A stretch of 64,000 nt of DNA from Antrihabitans stalactiti (GTDB lineage Bacteria; Actinomycetota; Actinomycetes; Mycobacteriales; Mycobacteriaceae): NCBI RefSeq assembly GCF_012932915.1, contig NZ_VCQU01000006.1:1-64000 (forward strand). The letters are read 5' to 3'. The notes below the pieces were generated by a model. It was not told where the DNA came from, ran no database searches, and saw only the letters and a list, made by a program, of their open reading frames with translations. The position numbers were made by a program, and so were the translations under genes. Below are positions 55,252 through 61,451 of this stretch, piece by piece (the first letter of the stretch is position 1; each line of letters starts with the position of its first letter).

Positions 55252-55552
55252 CATAAAAAACGGGCGGTGCTGCCGATTGCTCGACTTCACCGCCCGCTAA
55301 CAAGGACTACCCGGTTACCAAGCGTGCTAGGTGGGTTGTGTGGTTGGCCTCGGCGTCAATCCGACCTTCGCTGGTTCATCCCCGCAACCTGTGCGAGGTC
55401 CTCGCCCGCGAAGACCCGAATCACGCAGGCCCACAACGCTTCTGCCCTTGTCGCGGCGCGCTCCGCGTGGGTGCCTGGTGCCCTTGCTGGGAATCCCGGT
55501 TGGGAGATCGGCCCTTCTCTTCTGGCCCGATCTTGGCCGCCCGTTCTTCCGT
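55252..55552 (-). ncRNA. Ms1/MTS2823-type RNA (RNAP-binding small RNA)
   Basis: A gene-free 388-base region (55226-55613) holds a strong promoter (TTGATG-17-TACAAA) reading leftward and, about 300 bases on, a hairpin CGGGCGGTG/CACCGCCCG followed by a T-run. The implied transcript is about 300 bases, matching Ms1 of Mycobacterium smegmatis and MTS2823 of M. tuberculosis, and it occupies the same place and orientation: between the Rv3661 and Rv3662c homologues, co-oriented with the former. Ms1 binds sigma-free RNA polymerase core in stationary phase. Identification rests on position, size and signals, not on alignment. Confidence 0.8.
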
Positions 55553-56544: not shown

Positions 56545-56640
56545 CACCTGGACATGTTCCAGGCGTGTTCAGCCCGACCCCCCGGGGCTGAACCCGACGG
56601 CCCTCGCCTCCTCCCCCCCTGGCGAGGGCCGTCCTCTATT
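56545..56640 (+). ncRNA. 6C small RNA (B11 type)
   Basis: Two hairpins with C-rich loops follow each other: GTTCAGCCC/GGGCTGAAC (56567-56593) with loop GACCCCCCG, and GACGGCCCTCGCC/GGCGAGGGCCGTC (56596-56633) with a loop of seven consecutive C, then CTCTATTT. Two stems each with six or more loop cytosines define 6C RNA. TAGTAT at 56533-56538 is a fitting -10. The place between the Rv3661 and Rv3660c homologues, and the strand, match B11 of M. tuberculosis. The RNA uses its C loops to pair with G-rich mRNA leaders. Confidence 0.92.
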
Positions 56641-56790: not shown

Positions 56791-56817
56791 TTATCCACAA
56801 GGGCGGAGTTATCCACA
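56791..56817 (+). promoter_or_regulatory. Two tandem DnaA boxes upstream of ssd
   Basis: Perfect DnaA boxes TTATCCACA at 56791-56799 and 56809-56817, in the same direction, within a 12-base direct repeat GAGTTATCCACA with an 18-base period. They lie 53-79 bases before the ssd start, in the promoter zone. A GGTAC-ggca-GTACC dyad (56772-56785) lies just before. The remaining bases 56641-56771 show no gene. Confidence 0.65.
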
Positions 56818-56869
56818 TTCGCGCGGTACCCCCTTTCGCGGCTCTCGGCAGTACCCCAAGCTCGACTCC

Positions 56870-57979
56870 ATGGACCTCGACCAGGCTGTCAGCCGACCCA
56901 CCCCACGGGTCGCGATGCTCGTGCACGACGCAGACCTCCGCGGCGAAATACGCCGGATCGCGGCTGCCGCAGATGTGGTTCTCGACGAAATTGCCGGCGC
57001 CGTCGGTCGCCAGCTCTGGCAGGCACCGCATGTCGTTGTAGTGGACACGCCGACGGCGCAATCTCTCATCCTCGACCGCATGCCGCGTAGGCGCGGAGTC
57101 GTATTGGTGTGCTCGAGTAGCCCCGATCTGAACGACTGGGAGACGGCGTCGGCGCTCGGCGCCGAGCATGTGATCGGCCTTCCCAAGCAGGAATTCGAAT
57201 TGGTCGAAGTGTTCGGCGCCCGATCTGACGCCGACACGGGTGGCGGACCCGTGATCGCGATCGTGGGCGGCCGCGGCGGTGCGGGTGCGTCGACGTTCGC
57301 AGCGGCGTTGGCCGTCTTCGGAGCATCGACGCGATATCGGGCGGACACTCTGCTGATCGACGTCGACAGTGCAGGCGGCGGGATCGATCTGTTGCTCGGT
57401 GCCGAGCACGTTCCGGGGTTGCGGTGGCCCTCACTGGTCCTAGAGGGTGGTCGCGTGTCGCCGGTCGCGCTGCACAACGCATTGCCTTCTGCTGCGCCTG
57501 GGCTGACGGTGCTCGCCTGCGGGCGTGGCGAATTCGCGCTGGACCCGAATCCCGCGGCGGTGTCCGCAGTGATCGAAGCGGGCAGCAGTGCAGGCAACCT
57601 CGTCGTCGGCGACGTGCCGCGACGCCCGTCCGACGCGGGGGATGCCTTCCTCGATGCGGCGGATCTGGTCGTCATCGTGGTGCCCGCCGAACTGCGCGCC
57701 AGTGCCGCAGCAGAAGCTGTGGTGGCGCGCGTCGCGGCACACAGTCGACACTCCGGCCTCGTCGTGCGCGGACCGGCTCCAGGCGGGCTGCGTGGCTCCG
57801 ATATCGCTGCCGCCCTTGGGGTACCGATCCTCGCGGCGGTCCGGCCCGAACCGCGGCTGGCCGATCTGCTCGAACGGGGCGGTCTGCGGTTGCGCCGCCG
57901 GAGCCCGCTGCGCGTCGCCGCTGCGGCCGTGCTCGCAGCGGTGGAAGACCGGACCATTGCGCGAGGTCGGGCCGCATGA
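56870..57979 (+). CDS. ssd: CpaE/Ssd-like septum-site/pilus ATPase (Rv3660c-like)
   Basis: 369 residues; ATG without clear ribosome site. A receiver-like N-terminal domain (VAMLVHDADLRGEIRRI) precedes a MinD/ParA-fold domain with deviant P-loop GGRGGAGASTFAAALA (about residue 130) and LLIDVDSAGGGIDLLLG. It starts the seven-gene Tad-like operon. The M. tuberculosis counterpart was reported to inhibit septation when overproduced; in Tad systems CpaE localises the pilus machine. Downstream start overlaps as ATGA. Confidence 0.9.
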   Translation: MDLDQAVSRPTPRVAMLVHDADLRGEIRRIAAAADVVLDEIAGAVGRQLWQAPHVVVVDTPTAQSLILDRMPRRRGVVLVCSSSPDLNDWETASALGAEHVIGLPKQEFELVEVFGARSDADTGGGPVIAIVGGRGGAGASTFAAALAVFGASTRYRADTLLIDVDSAGGGIDLLLGAEHVPGLRWPSLVLEGGRVSPVALHNALPSAAPGLTVLACGRGEFALDPNPAAVSAVIEAGSSAGNLVVGDVPRRPSDAGDAFLDAADLVVIVVPAELRASAAAEAVVARVAAHSRHSGLVVRGPAPGGLRGSDIAAALGVPILAAVRPEPRLADLLERGGLRLRRRSPLRVAAAAVLAAVEDRTIARGRAA

Positions 57980-59151
57980 GCGCGATCGTTACCGCGGACC
58001 TGCTGGATCGCGTTCGCGATCGGCTCGCCGAGACCACGAGTGAGCCTTCGCCTGCCATGGTCGCCGCAGCACTACGTGCCGAAGCTGGCGGCGTGCTCGG
58101 CGACACCGATCTGCTCCGTGCTCTGCGGCTGCTGGAGACCGAGTTCACCGGCGTCGGTCCGCTTGATCCGCTGCTCGCCGATCCGGCGGTCGCGGACGTA
58201 TTGGTGACAGCACCTGACGAGGTATGGGTCGATCGAGGCCGTGGATTACAACGCACCACAACGCGATTCGCAGACGAAGCCGCGGTCCGTCGGCTGGCAC
58301 AACGGCTCGCGCTCGCCGCAGGCAGACGGTTGGACGATGCGCAGCCCTGGGTGGACGGTCGGTTACCAGGCGTCGGTCACTCTGGGTTCGGCGTCCGGCT
58401 TCATGCGGTGCTCGCGCCGATCTCGCAAGGTGGGACGTGTCTGTCGCTACGCGTCCTGCGCCCGGCGACGCAAGGTCTCGACGCGTTGGTCGCCGGGGGA
58501 GCAATCGCGCCGGACGCACACGCACTCCTGCTTCGGGTTGTCGCTGCGCGCCTGGCGTTCCTGGTCGTCGGCGGCACCGGCGCAGGCAAGACAACACTCC
58601 TTTCCGCGCTGCTCGCACAGGTCGACACCACCGAGCGGATCGTGTGTGTCGAGGATGCGGCCGAGTTGGCACCACCGCATCCACACGTCGTTCGGTTGGT
58701 CGCTCGAGCGCCGAATGTCGAGGGAGTCGGCGAGGTGACGGTCCGAGATCTTGTTCGGCAGGCGTTACGAATGCGGCCTGACCGCATCGTGGTGGGCGAG
58801 GTCCGTGGGGCCGAGGTCATCGACCTGCTCACTGCTTTGAACACCGGTCACGACGGCGGCGCGGGAACGGTCCATGCCAACTCGCCGGAGGAAGTCCCTG
58901 CCCGACTCGAAGCGCTTGCAGCACTGGGCGGAATGGATCGCGCAGCACTGCACAGTCAGCTGGCAGCTGCGGTGCAGGTCGTGCTGCACGTGCATCGCCG
59001 CGCCGACGGGACTCGCAGACTCGTCGAAATCGGTCTTGTGCGTAGGGAGGCGAATGGGCTGGTTGGCATTGTTCCCGCCTGGTCTGCCATCGGTGTCGAG
59101 CCTGCGGCAGGAGCATTGAATGCACTGCTGGACAGGAGGTCCGGGCTGTGA
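57976..59151 (+). CDS. tadA: TadA/CpaF secretion ATPase
   Basis: 391 residues. A helical N-terminal domain is followed by a type II/IV secretion ATPase core: Walker A VVGGTGAGKTTLLSALL (about residue 199), Asp box VCVEDAAEL, Walker B MRPDRIVVGEVRG and GTVHANSPEE. It powers pilin assembly at the inner membrane. Homologue of Rv3659c. Confidence 0.95.
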   Translation: MSAIVTADLLDRVRDRLAETTSEPSPAMVAAALRAEAGGVLGDTDLLRALRLLETEFTGVGPLDPLLADPAVADVLVTAPDEVWVDRGRGLQRTTTRFADEAAVRRLAQRLALAAGRRLDDAQPWVDGRLPGVGHSGFGVRLHAVLAPISQGGTCLSLRVLRPATQGLDALVAGGAIAPDAHALLLRVVAARLAFLVVGGTGAGKTTLLSALLAQVDTTERIVCVEDAAELAPPHPHVVRLVARAPNVEGVGEVTVRDLVRQALRMRPDRIVVGEVRGAEVIDLLTALNTGHDGGAGTVHANSPEEVPARLEALAALGGMDRAALHSQLAAAVQVVLHVHRRADGTRRLVEIGLVRREANGLVGIVPAWSAIGVEPAAGALNALLDRRSGL

Positions 59152-59936
59152 TTGTCGGGTTGGTCCTCACTTCGCTCGCGGTGCTCGTGCTACCGGGGCG
59201 AGCGTCCGGTCGCCGGTTCGACGTGTGCTATCCGCAGCCGCGCCCTGCTCGGCGGCGGGTACCCGATTCGTCGGTTTTGGTCGGATTGGTGTGTATCGCT
59301 GCACTGTTGGTGAGCGGTCCGCATGCGGTGATTGCGTGCGGGATTGCGTCGATGACAGTGCGGCATCGATACCTCCGCGCTCGGCGTGACCGGATGTACC
59401 AACTCGAGCGGCGAAAGTTGTTGGACGGGTTGGAGATACTGATCGGCGAACTCCGAGTCGGTGCCCATCCGTCCGCGGCCTGTGAGGCAGCGGCAGCCGA
59501 ATGCAGCGGGGCCGCGGCGCAAACCTTCGCGGTCGCCGCTGCGCGAAGTCGGCTGGGTGGCAGCGCTGCTTCCGGTGTCCGCGGCGAATCATCCGTCGTT
59601 GCAGCAGAATTTGCTCGCATTGCAGTCGCATGGCGGGTCGCCGAGAAACATGGTCTCGCCCTTGCTGAGCTGCTCGAAGCCGCGCGGTCGGATCTGCTCG
59701 GACGCATACGCTTTCGCAGTCGGACCGAGTCGGCTCTGGCCGGCGCTCGAGCGACAGGCGCGGTGCTGGCTGGATTGCCCTTGCTCGGTCTGGTGCTCGG
59801 CCACTTGATGGGTGCGTCGCCCCTGCGGGTGCTCCTGGGCGGCGGGTTCGGCGGCGCGTTGTTGATTGCAGGCACCGTGTTCGCCTGCGCCGGTTTGCTG
59901 TGGACTGACGCCATCACCGGCCGGGTCGTGGCATGA
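59148..59936 (+). CDS. tadB: TadB-like inner-membrane secretion protein
   Basis: 262 residues, GTG overlapping tadA. A type II secretion F domain (ERRKLLDGLEILIGELRVGA, then LIGRIRFRSRTESALAG-like stretch) lies between N-terminal helices and two C-terminal helices. It forms the membrane platform with the next protein. Matches Rv3658c. Confidence 0.88.
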   Translation: MIVGLVLTSLAVLVLPGRASGRRFDVCYPQPRPARRRVPDSSVLVGLVCIAALLVSGPHAVIACGIASMTVRHRYLRARRDRMYQLERRKLLDGLEILIGELRVGAHPSAACEAAAAECSGAAAQTFAVAAARSRLGGSAASGVRGESSVVAAEFARIAVAWRVAEKHGLALAELLEAARSDLLGRIRFRSRTESALAGARATGAVLAGLPLLGLVLGHLMGASPLRVLLGGGFGGALLIAGTVFACAGLLWTDAITGRVVA

Positions 59937-60511
59937 CGACTTTCGCGATCGCCATGGTTTCGGCGGCAATCCTCGCACTGCCGCCACCCACGAGTGCCGC
60001 TCGTCGGCTCGGTGGCCTGCAACTGACGGTTGTCGACGATCGCCAGGCTGCACCGAAAGACGATCCGCATGCTGTCGCTTCGACTTTCGACCTGCTCGCC
60101 GCATGTCTGCGCGCAGGGCTACCGATGGCCACGGCGGCGGCAACGGTCGCAGAGAGTTCGCCTGCGCCACTGTCGATGTCACTCCGCCGAGCCGCAGATC
60201 TGCTTGCGCTCGGAGCCGACGCGGCAACAGCGTGGCAGGACGCTTCGTCGGATCCCGCGACCGAGTCGCTCGCCCGAATGGCCCGCAGATCGGCTCGCTC
60301 GGGCTCGTCGCTTGCCGGCGCGATGACGGAGTTGGCACTCCAGAGACGCACAGAGGCAGAGGATGCTGCGGGAGCACAGGCGGAGCGAGCGGGTGTCTTG
60401 ATCAGTGGTCCGCTCGGGTTGTGCTTTCTACCCGCGTTCATCTGTCTCGGCATCGTCCCGGTAGTGGTCGGTCTCGCGGGCCATGTGCTCGGCGGCGGTG
60501 GATTGCTGTGA
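59933..60511 (+). CDS. tadC: TadC-like inner-membrane secretion protein
   Basis: 192 residues, ATG overlapping tadB. A short F domain (FDLLAACLRAGLPMATAAAT, then RMARRSARSGSSLAGAMTEL) and a C-terminal pair of helices. Smaller than proteobacterial TadC, typical of actinobacteria (Rv3657c). Confidence 0.87.
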   Translation: MTTFAIAMVSAAILALPPPTSAARRLGGLQLTVVDDRQAAPKDDPHAVASTFDLLAACLRAGLPMATAAATVAESSPAPLSMSLRRAADLLALGADAATAWQDASSDPATESLARMARRSARSGSSLAGAMTELALQRRTEAEDAAGAQAERAGVLISGPLGLCFLPAFICLGIVPVVVGLAGHVLGGGGLL

Positions 60512-60565
60512 TCACGAAACTTCGGCGCGGACTTGCCGCGCCGGGAAACAAAGGAGGGGAATCCG

Positions 60566-60769
60566 ATGGTGAAGTCGGCTTATCGGGAGTTGCAGACGCG
60601 GCTGTTGCTGGCGGTGACAGAGGAAGACGGAATGAGCACCGCCGAATACGCAATCGGCACGATCGCAGCAGCCGCTTTTGGTGCGGTCCTGTACACAGTC
60701 GTCACGGGAGACTCCATCGTCAACGCACTGACGAGGATCATCGACAAGGCACTGAGCACGTCGGTCTAG
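60566..60769 (+). CDS. Flp-like pilin (DUF4244)
   Basis: 67 residues, ATG with AAGGAGGGG upstream, the strongest site in the operon and fitting a major structural product. EDGMSTAEYAIGTIAAAAFG has the pilin cleavage-zone features: Glu five residues after the Gly, Tyr after it, then a hydrophobic helix. Processing by a prepilin peptidase is expected before the MSTAEY segment; no peptidase gene is in the window. Matches Rv3656c. Confidence 0.9.
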   Translation: MVKSAYRELQTRLLLAVTEEDGMSTAEYAIGTIAAAAFGAVLYTVVTGDSIVNALTRIIDKALSTSV

Positions 60770-60789: not shown

Positions 60790-61101
60790 GTGACCGTGGA
60801 GGCGGCGATCGCAATTGCGTCGATCATGGTGGTCGTCGTCATGTGCATCGGGGCGGTGCTTGCCACATCGATGCACATCAGGTGCGTCGACGCTGCTCGG
60901 GAAGCGGCGCGGCTGGCAGCGCGGGGTGATGAGACGAATGCGGAGGCATCGGCCCATCGGGTCGCGCCGGACGGAGCTCACGTCTCGGTCCGGACCGAAG
61001 GCGACCACGTCGTCGCCACGGTCAGCGTCGAAATGGCTCTCCTGCCGCTGATCGAGATATCCGCCGAGGCGGTGGCGGCCGTGGAACCGGAGGCCGAATG
61101 A
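60790..61101 (+). CDS. TadE-like pseudopilin
   Basis: 103 residues from GTG 60790; the true start may lie up to 20 codons upstream, overlapping the pilin gene. TVEAAIAIASIMVVVVMCIGA is the TadE hydrophobic segment with Glu at position 5 of the mature protein, followed by CVDAAREAARLAARGD, conserved in Rv3655c. Likely minor pilin, membrane-anchored with the rest outside. Overlaps the next gene by ATGA. Confidence 0.82.
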   Translation: MTVEAAIAIASIMVVVVMCIGAVLATSMHIRCVDAAREAARLAARGDETNAEASAHRVAPDGAHVSVRTEGDHVVATVSVEMALLPLIEISAEAVAAVEPEAE

Positions 61102-61451
61102 AGCGACTCGCCGACGACCACGGGGTGGCAACGGTGTTCGCGAGCTTCGTGATGCTGGCGCTGCTCGTGGTCGCCGTCTCGATCGTGCAGGTCGGGTCGT
61201 CTGTCGCGGCTCGGCATCGGGCGCAGTCCGCTGCCGACCTCGCGGCACTGGCTGCGGCCGGAGCGCTCGACGATGGTGACGAGTCTGCCTGTAGTGCAGC
61301 CGAAACCATCGCGCACCGGATGTCGGTCAGTGTCGCGACCTGCATGGTCGAGGACTGGGATGTGGTGGTGACCGTGACGGCCACGAAGGAACTTGCCGCG
61401 TTCGGATCCAAGGAGGTCAGGGCTGTCGCGCGCGCCGGGCCGGTCGAGTAG
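61098..61451 (+). CDS. TadE-like protein of the helicase/secretion neighbourhood (Rv3654c-like)
   Basis: 117 residues. A short cytosolic start ([13 protein letters not shown]) leads into a membrane helix and then [20 protein letters not shown], the conserved stretch of this family. Two Cys (about 64 and 81) may form a disulfide outside. Last gene of the Tad operon; 28 bases precede the transporter gene. Confidence 0.88.

Follow-up and report, generated by a model that had tools for sequence, protein, structure and literature searches.

Ahead of ssd, at the head of a Tad locus of Antrihabitans stalactiti, two exact copies of TTATCCACA lie in the same orientation with an 18-base period, where the original prediction had placed them: box 1 at 56791..56799 and box 2 at 56809..56817, both on the plus strand. 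The window, by which we mean the whole 64-kb stretch of DNA that was analysed, contains no further exact copy; shuffled windows held a mean of 0.08, and one of 100 shuffles reached two. The ATG of ssd (56870..57979, +, from the ORF list) begins at 56870, 52 bp past box 2. A predicted -10-like hexamer, CAAGCT (56857..56862, +), was read from the sequence 39 bp after box 2 and 7 bp before the ATG, and the start is apparently leaderless. The gene product matched TIGR03815 (CpaE_hom_Actino, septum site-determining protein Ssd) with 336 bits against a cut-off of 154; it is a CpaE-type ATPase heading a Tad operon. On the same strand follow tadA, encoding the pilus assembly ATPase (57976..59151; TIGR03819, 524 bits; PF00437), and genes for a tadB-like (59148..59936) and a tadC-like (59933..60511) membrane protein, both matching PF00482 T2SSF. 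Beyond them are a small DUF4244 protein (60533..60769, +; PF14029), perhaps a Flp-type pilin from its position and size, and a TadE-like protein of the Rv3654c family (61098..61451, +; TIGR03816, 104 bits).

Upstream of ssd lies a HAD-type gene on the minus strand, flanked by two small RNAs. Ms1 is at 55252-55552 on the minus strand. The 6C RNA (56564..56637, +; Rfam RF01066, 74.1 bits) is a neighbour outside the element; it runs in the same direction as ssd, and its terminal hairpin lies before the boxes. A reading of the boxes as part of a replication origin was dropped. The sole DnaA_C (PF08299) match of the genome sits on another contig, C20, where dnaN was placed beside dnaA by eye; because dnaA lies there, the window is not oriC, in agreement with the original prediction.

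Upstream regions of ssd in relatives, where that prediction had expected the pair to recur, did carry it. In the genus Antrihabitans it was found just upstream of ssd in 4/4 genomes: both boxes are exact in three, and the fourth combines TTATCCACA with TTGTCCACA. The Ssd proteins of these four genomes are only 57-62% identical. A degenerate pair was defined as two boxes on the same strand with a period of 17-19, at most 3 mismatches over the 18 positions, and no more than 400 bp upstream. Such a pair was present in 26 of the 30 loci best by Ssd similarity (reversed motif, 0/30; shuffles, 0/600). Among 80 named ssd loci, which are the best 80 of 419 found and overlap the best-30 set through shared genomes, 63 carried it at ≤3 mismatches and 74 at 4, and the reversed motif was seen in 0/80. 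By genus, the named loci with a pair were Antrihabitans 2/2, Nocardia 26/28, Rhodococcus 16/18, Rhodococcoides 2/2 and Skermania 1/1; Mycobacterium in the wide sense was a poorer fit (16/26), and at ≤3 mismatches no pair was seen at ssd in Aldersonia (0/1), Prescottella (0/1) or Haloechinothrix (0/1). Controls at the same stringency gave 1/309 for shifted windows of the same ssd loci and 0/17 for dnaA upstream regions. Periods of 17, 18, 19 and 20 bp occurred in 7, 48, 8 and 3 of the 80 loci (3 mismatches), any other period from 10 to 44 bp in at most 2. The exact consensus pair is rare, standing ahead of ssd in 19 of the 385 Ssd-matching genomes among 401 of the family; conservation of the ssd pair holds only with mismatches allowed. 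Because the ssd, comEA and yraN-comM loci are related, these counts and those given below for the other two are not independent.

The rest of the A. stalactiti genome was then searched. In its 6.76 Mb, TTATCCACA occurs 30 times and TTGTCCACA 22 times. The sum, 52, is close to the 47 occurrences of the reversed pattern, which shows no genome-wide enrichment of single boxes; a crude ORF predictor puts 25 of the 30 TTATCCACA copies in intergenic positions. What stands out are eight same-strand pairs of neighbouring boxes 13-20 bp apart. At ≤3 mismatches, pairs with a 9-bp gap were found nine times (reversed control, one) and pairs with a 10-bp gap six times, one of which overlaps another (control, two). 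Their targets include ssd, comEA followed by comEC (PF03772), a gene for a SAF/RcpC-CpaB protein, a DUF4192 gene, and yraN followed by comM and then dprA (TIGR00732). Seven members of a DUF559/MTES_1575/AbiEi_4-like family also have a pair ahead of them; membership was assigned by BLAST links and Pfam, with only L067 and L239 passing the Pfam cut-off, and in one of the seven an open frame was found only from about 430 bp on. The gene for the A24 prepilin peptidase carries a single exact box at the same place. Within one genome, a shared site stands ahead of several unlinked operons for uptake and ssDNA handling, as in a competence regulon. Two pairs are off-theme, one by a cyclodehydratase-like gene and one by an unassigned gene, as is the 20-bp pair of L079, which overlaps predicted genes. 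At the cyclodehydratase-like gene, in two genomes of the genus (L075, L115), the pair is upstream but points away.

Several further observations were made at these loci. The AbiEi_4-like genes (L065, L066, L067, L068, L074, L078, L081, L239) form a divergent multi-copy family of winged-helix proteins with a DUF559/MTES_1575 nuclease-like end, repeatedly with the element upstream; L066 has two separate boxes. A second shared stretch, CCCAGGTCGC, was noticed by eye about 13-14 bp past box 2 in L067, L068, L070 and L238, and L239 has a complement-like version of it. DUF4192 proteins (L063, L119) share the element and may be competence proteins. On contig C20, about 30 kb from dnaA and so near oriC, a tandem pair with a 13-bp period lies between crgA and a PH-domain gene (L072, 4054-4075). 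Two inverted TTATCCACA boxes lie between an F420 oxidoreductase gene and xerC (L064, 4060-4085), and in two genomes of genus g3 (L124, L131) a tandem pair precedes a gene for an M23 peptidase, with xerC about 0.8 kb away.

The 401 genomes of the family held 108 exact pairs, in 68 genomes. The gene in front was assigned from 94 fetched pairs, 4 in the A. stalactiti genome and 10 set before ssd by coordinates. Forty-one of the 108 precede genes of uptake or transformation: ssd (19), tadA (1), comEA (7), cpaB (4), the A24 peptidase (4, of which three were assigned from a Pfam score slightly short of the cut-off or by resemblance), yraN-comM (1) and the SSB gene (5). The DUF559/AbiEi-like family follows 24 of the 108 (two by weak similarity), DUF4192 one by Pfam and three more that resemble it by eye, DUF222 three (one only by weak similarity), and one unnamed family seven; 29 stand before other genes, without evident uptake role or assignment. 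In two g3 genomes, an ECF sigma-70-type gene, nearest SigM, follows an exact pair (L118 by Pfam and NCBIfam, L120 by similarity). Outside the sites, 938 kb of strand yielded one further pair at 3 mismatches and one for the reversed motif; three more matches there are the sites of off-centre loci.

comEA and yraN-comM were tested regardless of boxes, each on its 30 best loci. At comEA the pair was present in 23/30 (reversed, 0/30; shuffles, 0/600), and in 15 of these 23 its end lies 62-63 bp ahead of the predicted start. At yraN-comM it was present in 14/30 at 3 mismatches and 20/30 at 4, with 0/30 for the reversed motif at 4. The element is conserved at the same genes across genera for ssd and comEA, and its conservation at yraN-comM is weaker than at these two. 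A class-wide search for exact pairs found them in 18 of 394 genomes, 4 of which belong to this family; 12 of the other 14 are of one genus, g67 of family f19, where a single exact pair with a 17-bp period is conserved in 12 genomes (L217-L228). All 31 genomes of a second family, f6, contain comEA, and a pair 17-19 bp apart was found in 0/30 comEA loci at 3 mismatches. Ahead of comEA in this family, the sense strand carries TCCACA in 23/30 loci and its complement in 3/30. In several of these loci, TCCACA recurs at an interval of 27-29 bp, and a TAGCGT-like hexamer and the start come about 39 bp further on. At 4 mismatches, periods of 27, 28 and 29 occurred in 1, 3 and 2 of 30 loci (reversed, 0, 0 and 1), and no other period between 10 and 44 was seen in more than 2. 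The 27-29 bp repeat, visible in several loci, would be longer by one helical turn; it was spotted post hoc and on few loci.

Most starts have a [TC]AnnnT hexamer, the predicted -10, 5-8 bp ahead of the ATG or GTG, as leaderless genes do. At ssd, the distance from box 2 to this hexamer is 38-40 bp in 49/58 loci, 49-51 bp in 8/58 and 22 bp in one; 16 of 74 loci were set aside as lacking the hexamer, 10 of which read GACGCT. At comEA (2 of 26 set aside), the distance is 49-51 bp in 23/24 and 38 bp in one. The 93 distinct exact pairs, ahead of mixed gene classes, gave 42 placements, of which 20 fall at 37-42 bp, 20 at 50-51 bp and two elsewhere; many of the 93 gave none, and orthologues repeat among the placements. 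In the A. stalactiti genome, the distances are 39 bp for ssd, as read directly, 40 for cpaB, 50 for comEA, 49 for DUF4192, and 35, 39, 50 and 51 for the DUF559/AbiEi-like family, and the single box of the A24 peptidase gene is 38 bp from its hexamer by eye. No -10 candidate was found for 5 of the 13 pairs in this genome, yraN among them. The element thus keeps a fixed helical phase to the predicted promoter, in two windows about 11 bp apart, from which the face of the helix seems to matter. This geometry suggests that of an activator touching RNA polymerase. The claim that the pair ahead of ssd and the Tad genes is a conserved element is supported, and the element is linked to the predicted promoter.

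Taken together, the direct repeat with core TCCACA precedes, in the A. stalactiti genome or in relatives, genes for the Tad pilus, comEA-comEC, yraN-comM-dprA, cpaB, the prepilin peptidase, an ssb paralogue and DUF559/AbiEi-like proteins. We consider it probable, from sequence comparison, that in Mycobacteriales the pair is a tandem promoter element of the activator type, belonging to a competence (DNA-uptake) regulon. One protein bound to both boxes would touch RNA polymerase from one face of the DNA and would switch on leaderless promoters; genes for ssDNA handling and recombination would thereby be expressed jointly with those of the uptake pilus and the DNA channel. The DUF559/AbiEi-like genes have no obvious place in a theme of uptake. 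The original prediction was right that the element is regulatory and conserved, and genes other than ssd lie within its reach as well. The prediction had also proposed a special tie to septation, which found no support: the pair also precedes comEA, yraN-comM-dprA, cpaB, the prepilin peptidase and ssb, and the Ssd protein itself is an ATPase of the CpaE type. What these genes share is DNA uptake rather than division.

Chance placement of the boxes has next to nothing in its favour against the control counts (reversed motif 0/80, shifted windows 1/309, dnaA upstream regions 0/17), and we regard it as negligible. That the boxes might be dispersed clusters for DnaA titration, of the datA or Bacillus cluster type, intergenic by accident and without a role in nearby genes, would agree with several tandem pairs being spread over the genome; however, their location follows gene identity across genera and they keep a constant helical phase relative to the predicted promoter, for which reason we reject titration as very improbable. 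A repressor operator, for example one serving the winged-helix proteins of AbiEi_4 type, which have the pair at their own genes, would explain by autoregulation why these genes follow 24 of the 108 exact pairs. Such an operator is unlikely: the box sequence is constant within the genome while the AbiEi_4-type paralogues diverge widely, and the site is upstream of the predicted promoter, not over it. PafBC was dropped as a candidate regulator, its reported motif being different and often spanning -35 to -10 (available part of PMC8151990).

The original prediction had DnaA bind the pair. On this account DnaA would activate, or repress, ssd-tad and the other competence operons and tie uptake to the state of replication. 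Both boxes are the high-affinity DnaA box of E. coli and B. subtilis, and TTGTCCACA, which box 1 of Mycobacterium ssd most often resembles (TTG in 9/26), is the box reported for M. tuberculosis (both from the accessible part of PMC4285127). The oriC side and the dnaA promoter of the A. stalactiti genome hold one exact TTATCCACAG each. DnaA is a known transcription factor (PMC8203912, as far as its accessible text goes). It is also the sole PF08299 protein in 21/21 genomes, so no paralogue competes for the role, and a DnaA paralogue as the regulator was ruled out on this count. Against DnaA stands the spacing. In 22 oriC-side regions (900 bp after dnaA, ≤4 mismatches; 14 from this family and 8 from other families in the order), boxes on the same strand are 12 bp apart in 19/22, 20 in 13, 21 in 12 and 22 in 7, whereas 17-18 bp was found in 0/22 and 19 bp in 2/22; the spacing of the pair is not oriC-like. 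The first three bases drift as well. TCCACA is nearly constant while bases 1-3 vary by genus: box 2 has TTA or TTG in Nocardia, TCA and CTA occur in Rhodococcus, and box 2 of Mycobacterium ssd has TCA in 15/26, reading mostly TCATCCACA; in f6, these bases are often not DnaA-like. The element is, moreover, tied to a functional gene set and not to replication genes. The 9-bp consensus of a putative DnaA site is there and the oriC-like arrangement is not, so the claim of DnaA control keeps its support from the box sequence and loses ground on spacing and drift. The original prediction may be right about DnaA; we hold such binding and control possible and, on balance, doubtful, and rate DnaA as the activator of a Mycobacteriales competence regulon, with Tad pilus, ComEA/EC and DprA/ComM together, a shade lower still.

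If the pair is the element of a competence regulon, we give a dedicated factor as its binder somewhat better than an even chance, and DnaA, the main named candidate, rather less than an even one. A dedicated activator recognising the core TCCACA would fit the difference from oriC spacing and the drift of bases 1-3 better than DnaA does, and is favoured for these reasons. To our knowledge, no activator with this core is known.

The nearest experimental system is Micrococcus luteus, for which the following is taken from the available portions of the sources. Both tad clusters and comEC are needed for transformation, and a prepilin-peptidase mutant was also made (PMC4322843). Expression of com genes is affected by a cpaB/cpaE operon that neighbours an HTH_17 gene, whose product, Mlut_14660, was proposed as a com-gene repressor (PMC8467076); no such HTH gene was found beside cpaB in A. 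stalactiti, where three neighbours encode a zinc ribbon protein, MscL and 5-FTHF cyclo-ligase. M. luteus has no ComK homologue (PMC4322843, PMC6667448), and upstream regulators are still to be identified according to a 2026 paper (PMC12849477). In the same portions, PMC8467076, PMC12849477, PMC6667448 and PMC4322843 describe no shared promoter element or activator; the word DnaA is absent from the first three, and "motif" appears in just one, not for a promoter. The accessible text of a review on DnaA as a transcription factor (PMC8203912) mentions neither competence nor pilus. By word search, DnaA and promoter are absent from papers on rv3660c and the M. tuberculosis Flp operon. Among the matches listed, the literature on DnaA and competence, on the box and a regulon, and on an actinobacterial competence motif contained nothing relevant, and no competence activator or operator for Actinomycetota was among them; subscription literature was mostly outside the search, so absence from print is unproved.

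The pair would be one instance of a common switch that turns on natural DNA uptake in this group of bacteria. An element common to several uptake operons can serve as bait for the activator and as a predictor of the regulon in any genome, and it raises the question of whether, given suitable conditions, natural transformation can occur in Rhodococcus, Nocardia and environmental mycobacteria. If it is true that DnaA binds, replication and DNA uptake would be joined directly, with uptake licensed by the state of replication initiation.

In Bacillus subtilis, ComK boxes place one activator site, with whole-helical-turn spacing, ahead of the pilus, comE and dprA/ssb-type genes of the ComK regulon. 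The present element is like these boxes in its gene classes and helical-turn spacing and differs in sequence. In gamma-proteobacteria, the Sxy/CRP-S regulon has comM, dprA, ssb, pilus and uptake genes under one element, a CRP-type inverted site; the gene set is similar to that described here, where the element is a direct repeat of TCCACA and not an inverted site. With DnaA-regulated promoters and box clusters it shares the 9-mer, but it is repeated at 18 bp instead of the 12 and 20-22 bp of oriC, and its bases 1-3 drift. With the competence system of M. luteus (tad-1/tad-2, comEA/EC), it shares a similar set of structural genes within Actinomycetota.
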